Part shown: positions 6,289 through 55,150 of the stretch, one piece after another
How positions within the stretch are numbered: position 1 is the stretch's first letter
Layout: each line of letters starts with the position of its first letter
Assembly: GCA_019637585.1 (NCBI GenBank)
Contig: JAHBVL010000003.1
Coordinates: 277,827-341,826 of the forward strand
Origin: Thermomicrobiales bacterium
GTDB taxonomy: Bacteria > Chloroflexota > Chloroflexia > Thermomicrobiales > UBA6265
Direction of reading: 5' to 3'
Length of the DNA: 64,000 bases
The notes under the pieces: generated by a model
Databases searched by the model: none
Seen by the model: the letters and a program-made list of their open reading frames with translations, nothing else
What the model was told of the DNA's origin: nothing
Program-made: the position numbers and the translations under genes

Positions 6289-7794
6289 ATGGTGGAAACG
6301 ACGCCGCCAGGCGAGCGCCCCAAACGCCGTCGGACCACCACGACCACCACCCAGCCGCCCGAACCAGCCCTGCCGCCCGAAGCACCGCGGACGATTCCGT
6401 CGCCGGACGGTCCGATCCTCCTGGCTCGCACATTGCCGAAAGAGCCAGAACCGGAAATCGCACCAGCAGCGCCGGCAATCGAACTCCCCGCTTCGCCTCC
6501 GTCGCTCTTTCAGAATCCGGCGTTTCAGGCCTTCTGGATTTCGAGACTCCTGATTCAGATCGCCCAGGGGGCGATGATGTATGCCCTGCTGGTGCTCGTC
6601 GTCGATACCGCGGGTTCGTCGTTTTACAACTCGATCTTCGTCATCTGCGCGGTGCTGCCGGCCATCTTCTTTGGATTGCCGGCCGGCGTCGCCGTCGACG
6701 CCGTTCCCAGACGCCCGCTGCTGGTGGCGCTGAATGTGGTGCGGTTTCTCTTCGTCATCTCGCTGGCGTTCCAGTTGCCGTCGATCGCCGGCATCTTCGC
6801 TACGGCGTTCGGCATCTGGACGATTCATCAGTTCTACGCGCCGGCCGAAGGCTCGACCCTTCCCGCGCTCGTCCCCACCAACCGGCTCACCGAAGCCCAG
6901 GCGCTTTCCAATCTGGCGCTGATCATCGCTCAGGCGGTCGGACTTGTGATCCTGGCGCCGCTGCTGCTGAAAACAGCCGGTCCGCAATATCTCTTCGCCA
7001 TCTGCGCCGCGCTCTTTCTCACCGCCGCATTTCTGGTGCTGCAGCTGCCACGCATCACCGATGCCTCGACCACGAGTCAGGCCCGCATGGCCGACGCCGG
7101 AATCGAGCAGGCATTGCTCTCTGGATTGCGAACCCTTATGGGAGACCAGATTCTCTTTCGCGTGACGCTGGTCGACATCATCGTTGGCATCGGGTTGAGT
7201 GCGCTGGTGGTCATCGCCCCGATCTATCTGACCAATATCCTCGACAGCTCATCGGAAAACACGGTTTTCGTCTTCGCGCCGGCGGCGATCGGGGTCATCG
7301 CCGGTCTCCGGCTGGCGCCATTCCTGAGCCGGCACATCGAGCTCCGGATGCTGGCCACACTGGGGCTCCTGATCTTTGCCGCATGCGTCGCGGCGTTCGG
7401 CTTTATGTCCGATATCTACCGGTTTCTGGTCGATACCCTACAGCTGCCGCTCGATGCGCTGGCCGACGCCGTCCGCATCGCACCACTGGCATTGATGGTC
7501 ATGCTCTTCTCCGTCCCCGCCGGGTTTTCGTCGTCAGTGGTTGGTGTTGCGGCTCGCACCACCACCCTGCTCCGCACCCCCACCGGATCTCAGGGCAAAG
7601 TGATCGCCACGCAGTCGCTCATGCAGAACATCGGAGCCCTGCTGCCGACCCTCGTGGCCGGCATCCTCGCCGACGTCATCGGCGTCGAGCGGGTGGCTAT
7701 CGTCATCGCCGTCCTGATGATCGCCGGCGCGTCAGCGACATTTCTGACGGGGCGGTTTACGCCGATGGCAAGGGGAATTGTTGATGGTGCATAG
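6289..7794 (+). CDS. Major facilitator superfamily transporter
   Basis: A 501-residue transporter with about 12 hydrophobic segments after a proline-rich cytoplasmic N-terminus of about 70 residues (repeated TTTT, PP and PE). The layout FQAFWISRLLIQIAQGAMMYAL followed by FFGLPAGVAVDAVPRRPLL (the MFS motif-A region) resembles the EntS/MFS_3 group of exporters. The substrate cannot be told. The gene follows the small membrane-protein gene without a gap. The last codons and the TAG stop lie inside a heptad repeat array, so the final VDGA residues are repeat-encoded. Confidence 0.88.
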   Translation: MVETTPPGERPKRRRTTTTTTQPPEPALPPEAPRTIPSPDGPILLARTLPKEPEPEIAPAAPAIELPASPPSLFQNPAFQAFWISRLLIQIAQGAMMYALLVLVVDTAGSSFYNSIFVICAVLPAIFFGLPAGVAVDAVPRRPLLVALNVVRFLFVISLAFQLPSIAGIFATAFGIWTIHQFYAPAEGSTLPALVPTNRLTEAQALSNLALIIAQAVGLVILAPLLLKTAGPQYLFAICAALFLTAAFLVLQLPRITDASTTSQARMADAGIEQALLSGLRTLMGDQILFRVTLVDIIVGIGLSALVVIAPIYLTNILDSSSENTVFVFAPAAIGVIAGLRLAPFLSRHIELRMLATLGLLIFAACVAAFGFMSDIYRFLVDTLQLPLDALADAVRIAPLALMVMLFSVPAGFSSSVVGVAARTTTLLRTPTGSQGKVIATQSLMQNIGALLPTLVAGILADVIGVERVAIVIAVLMIAGASATFLTGRFTPMARGIVDGA

Positions 7795-7854
7795 TGCATA
7801 GTTGATAGTTGATAGTGAATAGTTGATGGTGCATAGTGCATGGTTGATGGTGCA
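7778..7854 (+). repeat. Heptad tandem array, TAGTTGA/TGGTGCA type (left arm)
   Basis: Eleven consecutive 7-nt units in perfect phase (TTGTTGA, TGGTGCA, TAGTGCA, TAGTTGA, TAGTTGA, TAGTGAA, TAGTTGA, TGGTGCA, TAGTGCA, TGGTTGA, TGGTGCA). The array encodes the last residues and the TAG stop of the MFS gene at 7792-7794. A 7-nt unit carrying TAG offers a stop in all three frames within 21 nt. A second array of the complementary units lies 37 bp further on in inverted orientation. Confidence 0.9.
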
Positions 7855-7891
7855 TTGTGGGGTTGCGACGGCCACTACCGACGTTCAATGA

Positions 7892-7968
7892 TTCACTATC
7901 AACTACCAACCATGAACTATTCACTATCGACCATCAACTATGCACTATCAACTATTCACTATGCACCC
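7892..7968 (-). repeat. Heptad tandem array, inverted partner (right arm)
   Basis: Eleven 7-nt units in phase on the plus strand (TTCACTA, TCAACTA, CCAACCA, TGAACTA, TTCACTA, TCGACCA, TCAACTA, TGCACTA, TCAACTA, TTCACTA, TGCACCC). They are reverse complements of the units in the left arm. The array supplies the TAG stop of tyrS (7952-7954) and its last residues. Both convergent genes therefore end inside mirrored arrays, which could pair into a long imperfect stem in either transcript. Confidence 0.9.
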
Positions 7969-9250
7969 TCTTATACCTCTTCTTCCCCACCCGGAAGAGC
8001 TGCGGCGCATTCGAAGGGATGAACGCGGCATCGACCTCTTCGATCCGTTCTCCATTGATCGACAGTCCGCCTTGCGAAGCGAGGCGGCGCGCCTCTCCTC
8101 GTGACGCGACGAGCCCAGCCTCGATGAACGCTTCGGCGATGGTGATGCCATTCGCCAGCAGGTCGCCCGGAATGACCGCCGATGGGACGTTCGGGTCGGC
8201 GAGCATCGCCTCGAGCGAGTCGCTGCCAAAAAGCGCCTGAGCGGACGCATCCGCCTCCTGGGCCGCCTGTGCGCCATGCGCCAGCGCCGTCACCTCGCGG
8301 GCGAGCACTCGCTTCGCGTCTCGCAATGCGTCGCCACTCACCGAGGTCAGCCGCGCGATCTCCTCATTGGACACAAAGGTGAAGAGCTTTAGCAGCCGCT
8401 CGACATCCGCATCATCGACGTTGATCCAGTACTGGTAGTAGTCGAACGCCGAGGTCATGCTCCCTTCGAGCCATACCGAGTTGCCCGCCGACTTGCCCAG
8501 CTTCTCGCCGCTCGCCGCGGTGATCAGCGGACTGACCAGCGCGAACGCCTGCACTCCTTCGACCCGCCGGATCAGATCGACGCCGGCCACGATGTTGCCC
8601 CACTGGTCCGAACCACCCATCTGCAGGCGGCATCCTGTGGTGCGGTAGAGATGGAGGAAGTCGTAGGCCTGGACGATCCGGTAGTTGAACTCCACAAAGT
8701 TCAAACCAGCGCCGGTATCGACGCGGACCTTATAGGTTTCGGCGGCCAGCATCTCGTTGACCGAGAAGTGGCGCCCGATGTCCCGCAGGAATTCGATGTA
8801 GTTGAGCTCCAGCAGCCAGTCAGCGTTGTTCATCAGCAGAGCCGGCGGGTTGCTTCCGAACCGGTTGCCCTTGAAATCGAGAAAACGGTCGAACTGCGGC
8901 AAGATCGACCGCAGGTTTTGCCGAATCTGCTCTTCGCTGAGGACATCCCGCACCGATGTGCGGCCACTCGGATCGCCCACCAGCGCGGTTCCGCCCCCTC
9001 CCAGGGCCACCGGTTGATGCCCGAATCGCTGCAACACCGCCAGCAGCATGATGCCGAGCTGGTTGCCGATGTGCAGGGAGCGCGCGGTGGGGTCGAACCC
9101 GATGTACGCCGTCACGATCCCATCGTCGAATGCTTTTCTCAGATTGGGTTCGTCCGAGATGTCCTGAACGTAGCCACGGCTCTTCAGGTAGTCGACAACG
9201 TGAACCCCGGATTCCCTTGCCTCGATCGCGGAATCGGCACCTGTATTCAT
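7952..9250 (-). CDS. tyrS: Tyrosyl-tRNA synthetase
   Basis: A 432-residue class I aminoacyl-tRNA synthetase that charges tRNA-Tyr. The HIGH-type motif is SLHIGNQ near residue 60 and the KMSKS-type motif is EKLGKSAGN near 245. GGSDQWGNIVAG and a C-terminal S4 RNA-binding domain (LASQGGLSINGERIEE) are also present. Length and order match the bacterial enzyme. It starts directly after the stop of the LCP gene upstream (stop at 9251-9253), so the two form an operon. The C-terminal VHSE and the stop codon are written by the adjoining heptad array. Confidence 0.95.
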   Translation of the reverse strand: MNTGADSAIEARESGVHVVDYLKSRGYVQDISDEPNLRKAFDDGIVTAYIGFDPTARSLHIGNQLGIMLLAVLQRFGHQPVALGGGGTALVGDPSGRTSVRDVLSEEQIRQNLRSILPQFDRFLDFKGNRFGSNPPALLMNNADWLLELNYIEFLRDIGRHFSVNEMLAAETYKVRVDTGAGLNFVEFNYRIVQAYDFLHLYRTTGCRLQMGGSDQWGNIVAGVDLIRRVEGVQAFALVSPLITAASGEKLGKSAGNSVWLEGSMTSAFDYYQYWINVDDADVERLLKLFTFVSNEEIARLTSVSGDALRDAKRVLAREVTALAHGAQAAQEADASAQALFGSDSLEAMLADPNVPSAVIPGDLLANGITIAEAFIEAGLVASRGEARRLASQGGLSINGERIEEVDAAFIPSNAPQLFRVGKKRYKRVHSE

Positions 9251-13866: not shown

Positions 13867-13881
13867 GTGCAGCATTTCTTT

Positions 13882-13926
13882 CCGTCTGCCCGTCTCCCCG
13901 TCTCCCCGTCTCCCCGTCTCCCCGTC

Positions 13927-13928
<2 letters not shown>
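13882..13928. repeat. Octad tandem array, CCGTCTCC type
   Basis: About six 8-nt units (CCGTCTGC, then CCGTCTCC repeated, ending CCGTCTCA) run right into the metY stop codon at 13927-13929, which the last unit forms. The reverse complement (GGAGACGG) is the same family as the AGACGG-type octads at 55111-55150. Confidence 0.85.
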
Positions 13929-15279
<1,351 letters not shown>

Positions 15280-36035: not shown

Positions 36036-36070
36036 CAACAACTATGAACCATGCACTATCCACTATGCAC
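36036..36070. repeat. Heptad array, TATGCAC type
   Basis: Five 7-nt units in phase (CAACAAC, TATGAAC, CATGCAC, TATCCAC, TATGCAC) fill the gap between lysX and lysY, ending 10 nt before the lysY ribosome site. They are the same family as the arrays at 7892 and 38230. Confidence 0.85.
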
Positions 36071-36095: not shown

Positions 36096-37145
36096 ATGAG
36101 ACTCAAAGTATCGATCGTCGGCGGATCGGGATATGGCGGCGGCGAGCTGGTCCGGCTCCTGCTCAGCCATCCGGGCGCCGAGCTGAAGCAGGCCACGTCG
36201 GAACGGAGCGCCGGCAAGTTCGTCCACACGGTGCACCCGAACCTGCGCAAGCGAACCCAGCTAAAATTCGTGGCCAGCGCCGACCTGGAGCCGTGTGACG
36301 TGCTCTTCATCGCGTTGCCGCATGGCGTTTCCATGACCCGGATGAGCGAATTCCAGCAGATCGCACCGATCATCATCGATCTCAGCGCCGACTATCGTCT
36401 CAACGATCCGGCCGGTTACCCGACCTGGTACAACCACGAGCACAACAACGCCGATCTCCTGTCGAAGTTCGTCTACGGCATCCCCGAGCTCCATCGCGAG
36501 GAGATTCGCAACGCCGATCTGATCTCCAGCGCCGGCTGCATGGCCACAACATCGATTCTGGGGCTCTATCCCCTCTTCCAGGCGGGCGTGGTCGACCTCT
36601 CGATCCCCGTCGTCATCGAAGCCAAAACCGGATCGTCCGGTTCGGGCGGCGCGCCGGGTCTGGCGTCCCATCACCCCGAGCGGCAGGGCGTGATGCGATC
36701 CTTCAAACCGACGGGACACCGCCACTCGGCCGAGATCATCCAGGAACTGACGGTCGACGGCAACGCTCCCACCATCGCCTTCTCCGCGACCTCGGTGGAA
36801 GCTGTCCGGGGCATCCTGGCCACCTCCCACGTCTATCTGAAAGAAGAACTCTCGGACAAAGAGGTCTGGTCGTTCTACCGGGCAGCGTTCAAGGAAGAGC
36901 CCTTCCTGCGCGTGGTCAAGGAATCGAGCGGTATCCACCGCTATCCCGAACCAAAGATCCTCTCCGGTTCGAACTACTGCGACGTCGGCTTCGAGCGCGA
37001 TCCCCACAGCAAACGAGTCGTCGTCATGTCAGCCCTCGACAACCTGATGAAGGGAGCCGCCGGTCAGGCCGTCCAGTCGTTCAATCTCCGCTGCGGATTC
37101 GAAGAAACCTGCGCCATCGACTTCCCGGGATTGCATCCGATTTAG
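36096..37145 (+). CDS. lysY: LysW-gamma-glutamyl/aminoadipyl phosphate reductase
   Basis: A 349-residue NADPH-dependent reductase of the ArgC/LysY family. It has the nucleotide loop VSIVGGSGYGGGELVRLLLSHP, the active-site cysteine in SSAGCMATTSILGLYPL near 150, GSSGSGGAPGLASHHPERQG, and a PTGHRHSAEI histidine near 215. The wide GxxG insert and SGSGGAP are typical of the carrier-linked branch. The ATG at 36096 has a perfect AAGGAGGT. It reduces the phosphorylated carrier intermediate made by LysZ. Confidence 0.92.
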   Translation: MRLKVSIVGGSGYGGGELVRLLLSHPGAELKQATSERSAGKFVHTVHPNLRKRTQLKFVASADLEPCDVLFIALPHGVSMTRMSEFQQIAPIIIDLSADYRLNDPAGYPTWYNHEHNNADLLSKFVYGIPELHREEIRNADLISSAGCMATTSILGLYPLFQAGVVDLSIPVVIEAKTGSSGSGGAPGLASHHPERQGVMRSFKPTGHRHSAEIIQELTVDGNAPTIAFSATSVEAVRGILATSHVYLKEELSDKEVWSFYRAAFKEEPFLRVVKESSGIHRYPEPKILSGSNYCDVGFERDPHSKRVVVMSALDNLMKGAAGQAVQSFNLRCGFEETCAIDFPGLHPI

Positions 37146-37277
37146 GCAAAGGGCAATGGGCATTGGGCAAAGGCCGAAAGGGGACACGCCCCCCTCTCCC
37201 GCGGTCGGGAGAGGGGCCGGGGGTGAGGGAAAAATCTGCCGACTGCCGACTGCCGACTGCTGACTGCTGACTGCTGA
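37145..37277. repeat. Composite repeat: GGCAAAG heptads, a C/G hairpin, CTGCCGA heptads
   Basis: Directly after the lysY TAG come five units of the GGCAAAG type (37145-37179). Next is an 11-bp hairpin, CCCCTCTCCCG paired with CGGGAGAGGGG (37191-37216), of a kind seen between genes in many bacteria. Then come six units CTGCCGA/CTGCTGA (37236-37277). All heptads keep exact 7-nt phase. The hairpin could act as a stability or partial termination element inside the operon. Confidence 0.85.
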
Positions 37278-37295
37278 CTACCAAGGATATCGACC

Positions 37296-38114
37296 ATGCA
37301 ACACGGCTTCGTCATCACACAGGGAACAGCTGAAGAATTCGTCGAGCTTGCCGAGCTGATCGAGGCGTCGGGGTGGGACGGCGCGTTCGGGTGGGAGGTG
37401 GTTTATGGACTCGATCCCTGGGTCATCCAGGGCGCCATGGCGGTCAAAACGTCGCACGTCAAGCTGGGACCGCTCCTCACCCCACCATCGCGCCGCCGCC
37501 CCTGGAAACTGGCATCCGAGGTGGCCACGGTCGATCTGCTGTCCAATGGCCGAGCCGTCCTGATGATTGGCCTCGGCGATCCGGGAACGGGCCTCGCCGA
37601 TGTCGGCGAAGAAATCGATCGCCGCACCAGAGCCGAGCTCGTGGACGAATCGATCGACCTGATGCGGCATTTCTGGTCCGGCGAGCCATTCACGTATGAA
37701 GGCAAGCATTATCAGGTCGATTGGTCGTCGAAAAAGGACTGGGATGTCACGCCGGTCCAGCAACCACCACCGATCTGGACCGTCGCCCTCTGGCCGCATG
37801 AAAAGTCGATGAGCCGCGCGTTCCGCGTCGAGGGCGTTCTCCCCTACGTTCCCGGCGAAACGCCGATGCACAACGCCATCACCGCCGAGCACGTCGCCGC
37901 GATTCGCGCCGCCGCCACCGAGCGGAAGGGGCCAGATACGCCATTCGACATCGTCATGGAAGGCGTCACCCCCATCGGCGACACCGCTGCACTGGACAAG
38001 GTCCGCACGTTCCGTGATGCCGGCGCCACCTGGTGGATCGAATCGATGTGGGGCGCCCCGGGCGGAGTAGAAGCGTTGAAAGAGCGGATCAAAGCCGGAC
38101 CGCCGGAGGTGTAG
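37296..38114 (+). CDS. LLM-class flavin-dependent oxidoreductase
   Basis: A 272-residue luciferase-like monooxygenase or F420/FMN-dependent reductase. It shows the family opening (TAEEFVELAELIEASGWDGAFGWEV), LGPLLTPPSRRRPWKLASEVATVDLLSNGRAVLMIGLGD, and FTYEGKHYQVD. It lies between lysY and lysZ and on the same strand, yet no step of the LysW pathway is known to need such an enzyme. Both its flanks are filled with heptad repeats, so it may be a later insertion or a separate function. The family is certain; the role is unknown. Confidence 0.85.
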   Translation: MQHGFVITQGTAEEFVELAELIEASGWDGAFGWEVVYGLDPWVIQGAMAVKTSHVKLGPLLTPPSRRRPWKLASEVATVDLLSNGRAVLMIGLGDPGTGLADVGEEIDRRTRAELVDESIDLMRHFWSGEPFTYEGKHYQVDWSSKKDWDVTPVQQPPPIWTVALWPHEKSMSRAFRVEGVLPYVPGETPMHNAITAEHVAAIRAAATERKGPDTPFDIVMEGVTPIGDTAALDKVRTFRDAGATWWIESMWGAPGGVEALKERIKAGPPEV

Positions 38115-38120
38115 GCGGAG

Positions 38121-38264
38121 GGCGAAAGGCAAAGGGGCAAAGGGCAAAAGGGAAATAGGAGATAGGAAATAGGAAATAGTCCGGCGTCGCCTCAGACTCC
38201 GGACCTCGGACTACGGACCACGGACTTCTATGCACCATGCACTATCAACTATCAACCATTCACT
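38121..38264. repeat. Long composite heptad array of three unit types
   Basis: Seven bases after the TAG of the LLM gene begin units GGCGAAA, GGCAAAG, GGGCAAA, then TAGGAGA and TAGGAAA (to 38183). After 11 bp come ACTCCGG, ACCTCGG, ACTACGG, ACCACGG (from 38195), which pass without a phase change into TGCACCA, TGCACTA, TCAACTA, TCAACCA, TTCACTA (to 38264). Three sequence families thus share one 7-nt register. The lysZ ribosome site AAAGGA follows at once. Confidence 0.9.
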
Positions 38265-38275
38265 AAAGGACCCCC

Positions 38276-40303: not shown

Positions 40304-40336
40304 GCCTGACATTTCATGACATGCGCGTCATCACCT

Positions 40337-40794
40337 GTAGGGGCGCACGGCGTGCACCCAACGCGTCCCAGACGATGGTCGGCGGCGGGAAACGCCGTCT
40401 CCCACAGAATGGGCACACACCGCGTGCCCCTACAGTGTTGTGCGCGTCATCACCCATAGGGGCGCACGGCGTGCGCCCAACGCATCCCAGGCGATGGTCG
40501 GCGGGCGGGAAAACGCCGTCTCCCAAAAAATGGGCACACACCGTGTGCCCCTACGATGTCATGTGCGCCATCACCTGTAGGGGCGCACGGCGTGCGCCCA
40601 ACGCATCCCAGACGATAGTCGGCGGACGGGAAACACCATCTCCCACAGAATGCGCGCACACCGCGTGCCCCTACAGTGTTGTGCGCGTCATCACCCGTAG
40701 GGGCGCACGGCGTGCGCCCAACGCGTCCCAGACGATGGTCGGCTGGCGGGAAACGCCGTCTCCCACAGAATGGGCACACACCGTGTGTCCCTAC
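40337..40794. repeat. Four tandem REP-like units (family B)
   Basis: Four copies of a unit of about 98 bp at 40337-40433, 40456-40554, 40577-40674 and 40697-40794, separated by 22-bp spacers carrying GCGCGTCATCACC or a close variant (period about 120). Each starts GTAG (ATAG in copy 2), followed by the hairpin GGGCGCAC-GGC-GTGCGCCC, and ends with a similar inverted hairpin and CTAC. No gene is seen in this 548-bp gap apart from the repeats. The spacers are near-identical, so it is not a CRISPR array. Confidence 0.88.
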
Positions 40795-40852
40795 GATGTC
40801 GTGCGCGTCACACGGGGGACGCGTTACAGTTTCATCTGCCGAAGGGGTGTCT

Positions 40853-53473: not shown

Positions 53474-53513
53474 TGCAGCAAGTCCAGCATCAAGAGAGTG
53501 TCGGCCGCCCAGT

Positions 53514-53843
53514 GTAACGGCAATGCCGGCGTTGACCAAACCACACCGCCGGCGACTGACGTGCGAGGCAGGCCTCGCCGCTACACAGAACCCCGTATCG
53601 TCACAGATGTAGCGGCAACGCAGGCGTTGCCACCGCCACCCCGGCAACCGACGGGCGAGGCAGGCCTCGCCGCCACATGGAACCCCGTATCGCCACGGGT
53701 GTAGCGGCAAGGCCTGCCTTGCCAATCGCAACCCCAGCGACCGACGAGCGAGGCCCCTGGTATCGTGACAGGTGTAGCGGCAAGGCCTGCCTTGCCAAAC
53801 CTCAACCACCGCGACCGACGGGCGAGGCAGGCCTCGTCGCTAC
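53514..53843. repeat. REP-like units (family D) on the 5' side of the transposase gene
   Basis: Four units at 53514-53584, 53609-53676, 53701-53757 (cut short) and 53773-53843, each with the GTAGCGGCAA head (GTAA in the first) and a GCCTCGCC-type closing hairpin. The first lies 41 bp before the transposase start and may contain its promoter. Conserved centres include CCACCGCGACCGACGGGCGA. The third has lost its closing arm. Confidence 0.88.
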
Positions 53844-54996: not shown

Positions 54997-55110
54997 CTCT
55001 CAACCTTCCCTGCGACACATCCGATATCGCTCCAATAGTAGCTGGTGGCAGCGTCAACCCGGATGACGTGGGGTGGCGCCAGCGAGCGCACAACAACCAC
55101 GCCCATGGCC

Positions 55111-55150
55111 AGACGGCTAGTCGGCAAGACGGCGAGACGGTAAGAAGAAA
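55111..55150. repeat. Octad array, AGACGG type
   Basis: Units AGACGGCT, AGTCGGCA, AGACGGCG, AGACGGTA and AGAAGAAA keep an 8-nt phase and lead directly into the hairpin at 55151. They are the same family as the octads at 13882, in the opposite orientation. A further octad-like run (CCGCCTCT, CTGCCTCT, CGCCTTTC) at 55231-55259 ends in the stop codon of the next gene. Confidence 0.75.

Follow-up and report, generated by a model that had tools for sequence, protein, structure and literature searches.

Intergenic heptad repeats have been on record in bacteria for decades, and we know of no function for them. Rehm et al. 2015 (PMC4692102) described GGGAATC-type heptads (GGGAATC / GGGGA(C/T)T) in Xanthomonas and Nostoc that follow the same gene-edge and orientation rule as the arrays analysed here; the overlap with stop codons, the scarcity between divergent genes and the occurrence of facing pairs (mainly in Xanthomonas) were also reported. 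That study connected the heptads with G-quadruplexes and did not find a function. TAACTGA heptads occur in Beggiatoaceae, Cyanobacteria and Bacteroidetes, with a proposed translational role (MacGregor 2015, PMC4679880). The orientation and gene-edge rule itself is already known from Rehm et al. 2015; the TRGTNNA version of the repeat, its spread over phyla and the exchange of heptad families are added here.

Mirrored arrays between the MFS and tyrS genes

The features in the window, i.e., the whole 64,000-nucleotide stretch of DNA that was analysed, are as follows.

6289..7794, plus strand: MFS transporter gene (Pfam MFS_1); the left array supplies its final codons and the TAG stop
7778..7861, plus strand: left arm, about 11–12 TRGTNNA heptads, 10 of them strict at 7785–7854
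7792..7794, plus strand: TAG with which the MFS gene ends, part of a repeat unit
7855..7891, no strand: non-repeat centre between the arms, 37 bp
7892..7966, minus strand: right arm, about 10–11 heptads in reverse-complement orientation, 8 strict at 7892–7961
7952..7954, minus strand: TAG stop of tyrS, inside a repeat unit; the last residues, HSE, are array-coded
7952..9250, minus strand: tyrS, tyrosyl-tRNA synthetase gene (Pfam tRNA-synt_1b/TyrS)
36045..36065, minus strand: second TRGTNNA array, with 3 units; a plus-strand gene starts 30 bp further on (hexamer-model gene calls)
38231..38265, minus strand: third TRGTNNA array, with 5 units; a plus-strand gene starts 10 bp further on, and other heptads adjoin

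The MFS and tyrS genes are convergent and separated by a spacer of 157 bp, in which the first-pass annotation had noticed two mirrored arrays facing each other across 37 bp; this layout was confirmed (gap at 7855–7891). The count it gave, eleven units against eleven, holds when imperfect units are included, but not for strict TRGTKVA units, of which the left arm contains 10 (7785–7854; 7778 to ~7861 with imperfect units) and the right arm 8 in 10 register slots (7892–7961, extending to ~7966). Both genes do terminate inside the arrays, with the TAG provided by a repeat unit in each case. The expected pairing of the two arms as a long imperfect stem was reproduced by the RNA fold of 7770–7975 (−94.8 kcal/mol), which is strong on both strands of the site (z −10.5 and −9.7). 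A canonical intrinsic terminator, consisting of a G+C-rich stem followed by a T tract, was sought in 7700–8050 and none was found, and an Rfam scan of the site returned no match at the gathering score, just sub-threshold hairpin look-alikes.

The convergent MFS-tyrS pair is likewise present in the closest relative found (TyrS 70% identical), where the spacer is a repeat-free 42 bp and the stops are ordinary TGA and TAG codons. In most relatives, the TyrS homology stops at residue 429, directly before the array-coded HSE, indicating that these residues and the stop of tyrS were written by the array.

The window contains several other repeats. The spacer at 37141–37290 is bounded by mirrored heptads, GGGCAAT-type at the left edge and CTGCCGA/CTGCTGA at the right, and a composite spacer at 38114–38265 combines GGGCAAA, GGAAATA, GGACTACG and TRGTNNA heptads and ends 10 bp before a gene. 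A 120-bp unit forms four tandem copies, 86% alike, at 40322–40810, and a tandem 92-bp unit is present in 2.7 copies at 53506–53754. Octamer arrays (CCGTCTCC; GGCAAGAC), with a period of 8 and not 7, occur at 13873–13936 and 55104–55147.

Placement and orientation within and beyond the host genome

In the host genome (3.94 Mb, 33 contigs), the two-unit heptad pattern matched 112 + 112 times (one figure per strand), compared with 4 + 3 for the reversed pattern, indicating that the arrays are not due to chance. Genes were called on the stretches around the array sites with a codon-hexamer model built for this analysis, so that gene edges at starts are approximate, and these stretches were used together with unselected ones for the host-genome analysis. 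Arrays were found in 50 spacers, and a single one inside a called gene. Both arms are present in 18 of these spacers, always in the order plus then minus ('+−'; '−+' = 0), and 32 carry one arm (the plus arm alone in 17, the minus arm alone in 15).

Checked for random placement relative to stop codons, the arrays proved to be placed far from randomly. The TAGT strand is directed away from the nearest gene in 61 of the 68 arms (5000 shuffles gave a mean of 34 and at most 48), and 48 of the 68 lie between −20 and +35 bp from the edge of their own gene (null 22, maximum 36). The away:toward ratio is 40:4 at 3′ ends and 21:3 at 5′ starts; that the arrays adjoin start codons too is an addition to the original, stop-centred description. 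Where an array overlaps a stop codon, the stop is TAG in 17 of 18 cases, against 41% among all called genes. In addition, convergent spacers are enriched among the array spacers (15/50, p = 0.027) and divergent spacers are depleted (7/50, p = 0.03), and the both-arm sites are convergent in 8/18 cases vs 18% (p = 0.009). The centres between the arms differ from site to site with no common core, and some of the other sites have an apparent ordinary terminator beside the array.

The sole strong period in the unselected spacers of the host genome is 7. Period-7 arrays other than TRGTNNA also place their G-richer strand away from the gene (31 away, 5 toward in the host genome; 50 away, 13 toward in other genomes). 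The common TRGTNNA unit types have two adjacent G at most. A three-unit match was absent from all 60 relatives of the same family or order; among 399 further genomes sampled from the phylum, 4 had one.

We scanned one genome per species for the mirrored pattern, and the matches listed include loci in Mucilaginibacter, Saprospiraceae, Prevotellaceae, Pyrinomonadaceae, Planctomycetaceae, Cyanobacteria, Tissierella, Anaerolineae, Mesorhizobium and others; among these matches, the design occurs in Bacteroidota, Planctomycetota, Acidobacteriota, Cyanobacteria, Firmicutes and other phyla. Over 19 genomes, 177 matches are arranged inward and 1 outward; the ratio is more telling than the raw count, because an inward site was the criterion for choosing all of these genomes except the host, and because a site with overlapping matches was counted once per match. 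The distance of the arrays to stops peaks at −3 (median 11 bp), and the median distance to starts is 36 bp in the surveyed genomes. In one genome of Mucilaginibacter lappiensis, mirrored AGTATCA heptads occur at 14 sites, and some of these have related centres; this species was considered as a counter-example for orientation and ruled out, as its AGTATCA heptads obey the AGT rule.

Turnover of heptad families in Mucilaginibacter

We followed one orthologous spacer of Mucilaginibacter, flanked by a HisE-domain gene on one side and a WD40 gene on the other, across 25 species in which it is long enough to fold. The best period was 7 in all 25, and a stable fold was retained (median z −5.0; z ≤ −3 in 21/25). 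Seven heptad families were distinguished (TRGTTCA, TRGTCCA, GTTTTAC, GAGTTNN, GCAGTTN, AAAGTNN and AGATTGN), with the labels assigned by eye in 24 of the 25 spacers, and at least 12 changes of family are required on the tree. Stop-free heptads such as GCAGTTT occupy the equivalent position. In one pair of genomes, whose flanks are 95.8% and 92.3% identical, the HisE-WD40 spacers are 35% alike and belong to different heptad families.

A comparison of 160 kb between the two genomes of this pair (mean flank identity 94.6%) revealed a heptad stretch in 22 of 75 spacers. Several of these heptad spacers had been exchanged outright and others were conserved; one showed partial loss of an arm and another an altered copy number. 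Divergent spacers account for 1 of the 22 heptad spacers, compared with 16 of the 53 others (p = 0.016). Replacement of heptad spacers was not significantly more frequent than that of the others (5/22 vs 4/53, p = 0.11). Copy-and-paste of the module within its genome was rejected, as the swapped-in spacer has no second full copy there. Intergenic palindromes of the GTCATTGCGAG type, which are not heptads, have also replaced one another at the same spacer between the two genomes (L281–L286 and L287–L294). In one Mucilaginibacter stretch (L264, 9067–16700), four heptad spacers in a row have GTCATTA hairpins that resemble each other closely and share their centre; they may have been copied along with duplicated genes.

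Origin, possible uses and relation to known systems

The layout of the arrays, their orientation and edge rules, the restriction to a lineage, the array-free orthologous spacer in a relative and the turnover of heptad families at an orthologous spacer of another genus are established. The reading we favour, with a probability of roughly 0.48, is that of an intergenic heptad-repeat stem-loop in which slippage grows the arrays, hairpin template switching mirrors the arms and gene edges halt the growth. Tandem 7-nt arrays would expand in a spacer by slippage in 7-nt steps. The simplest maker of the mirroring would be template switching at a DNA-level hairpin (quasipalindrome), by which one arm is copied into the other. 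Selection on the coding sequence or, at starts, on the ribosome-binding region may stop the growth at gene edges, and an array that runs past a stop codon would put its own TAG in place of that stop. The writing of C-termini would then be a by-product, as it appears to be since the orientation rule holds at starts and for other heptads. Hairpins are known to be both created and repaired by template switching (PMC8794818), and a citation in PMC4679880 credits others with the proposal of 7-nt slippage.

The pairing analyses bear on the template-switching step. In the host genome, a mirrored unit order between the arms was not found (z −0.1) and the 18 pairs of arms paired no better with their own than with swapped partners (p = 0.24), so that template copying is not visible there as a class. 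Both signals are present in other phyla: the arms have a mirrored order of units (z 5.8), and own arms out-pair swapped ones (p = 0.0004). A G·U asymmetry pointing to RNA-level selection gave no signal, with 9 G·U and 9 A·C mismatches in codirectional spacers; this lack of an RNA-strand bias is consistent with a DNA-level process. We infer that slippage plus template switching is the engine and that the arms of the host genome now drift separately. Besides the missing mirroring and pairing signals in the host genome, three points weigh against this reading: template switching alone leaves the orientation of the AGT-bearing, G-richer strand at both starts and stops unaccounted for, the convergent enrichment and divergent depletion hint at transcript-related selection, and the exchange of whole spacers between families in close relatives is more abrupt than slippage predicts. 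Stops, quadruplexes and G·U pairing do not explain why the AGT-bearing strand nearly always reads away from the gene.

The main rival to slippage and template switching is a role of the stem in bidirectional transcript ends, in which an RNA stem-loop made of the paired arms would, from both sides, end transcription or shield the mRNA 3′ ends. The strong fold on both strands of the site, the enrichment of convergent and depletion of divergent spacers in the host genome, the rarity of heptads between divergent genes in the Mucilaginibacter pair and the retention of the HisE-WD40 hairpin despite the family changes give such a role indirect support. Nevertheless, we regard it as rather unlikely, since the MFS-tyrS spacer lacks a T-tract terminator, other sites show an apparent ordinary terminator next to the array, 32 of the 50 array spacers of the host genome are single-armed, arrays adjoin start codons too, and neither a pairing signal in the 18 host-genome pairs nor a G·U bias was detected. 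As a secondary use, a two-way transcript 3′-end structure is possible. A tentative further idea, which we hold to be rather less likely than not, is that many bacteria in several phyla have a 7-nt-phased intergenic hairpin whose layout and orientation are kept as its sequence is exchanged wholesale between unrelated families, with an undescribed generator and a shape-dependent role at gene boundaries.

REP/MITE-like behaviour, with each array pair being an intergenic cassette that is mobile or exchangeable and moves as a whole, is improbable. A full swap of heptad families between the stop and start codons with flanks 92–96% identical, as well as the confinement of the dispersal to one lineage, would be expected of cassettes, but the centres vary by site with no common core, the swapped-in Mucilaginibacter spacer lacks a second full copy in its genome, and the flank divergence is of the ordinary species level that permits alleles to be exchanged by homologous recombination instead. 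If the arrays were bound by a protein marking or insulating gene edges, as a supercoiling barrier or transcription roadblock, this would account for the fixed orientation at starts and stops, single arms included. Many heptads obey the same rule, which fits binding sites of this kind, yet a sequence-specific protein would not accept the free change of heptad seen at an orthologous site, making this a very unlikely explanation. Least probable of all, and only barely credible to us, is selection of the arrays as all-frame translation stops. The readthrough barrier raised by the first-pass annotation stood insofar as stop codons are overlapped nonrandomly, with 17 of 18 being TAG, and TAG units in a 7-nt register do stop every frame. 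As an organising idea, it is largely refuted, because the orientation is identical at start codons (21:3), stop-free heptads such as GCAGTTT take the equivalent place and the non-TAGT arrays follow the same rule.

Several known repeats resemble the arrays in part. Like the TAACTGA repeats (PMC4679880), they are intergenic, hold stops in all frames, occasionally overlap gene ends and are patchy across phyla; however, the TAACTGA repeats are mostly direct and just upstream of starts, with one inverted case in the main genome, whereas the unit here is TRGTNNA, mostly at 3′ edges and often in inverted pairs. In the P6b heptad stem of the Nostoc trnL intron (PMC4476775), mirror-image arms also form a stem and two unrelated heptad classes substitute in the same place, but that stem sits in a group I intron and the window arrays lie between protein genes. 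The (GATAGRA)n repeats of Chloroflexus aurantiacus are likewise dispersed heptad arrays in a bacterium, presented as satellites, with no placement or orientation rule, in the part of that report consulted (PMC6749651). REP and REPIN palindromes share the dispersed intergenic inverted repeats, but are described, in the portion of the source drawn on, as defined 20–40 bp palindromes with GTAG or CGTC tags (PMC3733652), in contrast to the coreless tandem heptads of changing sequence seen here. The literature searched contained no description of the spread across phyla of a heptad unable to form quadruplexes, nor of heptad families replacing one another at an orthologous spacer. Since the Mucilaginibacter heptad changes while the 7-nt hairpin stays, selection on spacer shape and a mutational engine writing oriented 7-mers can be directly tested against each other.

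The closest likeness is to the Xanthomonas and Nostoc heptads. In common with these, the TRGTNNA arrays lie in spacers rather than genes (50 spacers, one array in a gene), point away from the closest gene, whether at its start or its stop (61/68), and form facing inverted pairs (18 '+−' and no '−+'; 177:1 over 19 genomes). The Xanthomonas/Nostoc heptads are known from those two genera, whereas the TRGTNNA-type design spans many phyla and, with GG at most, lacks quadruplex-capable G tracts. TRGTNNA has no GGG tract yet obeys the same strand rule, and therefore the quadruplex, the sole published structural explanation, is not general for a strand rule and mirrored layout now seen in non-quadruplex heptads of many phyla.
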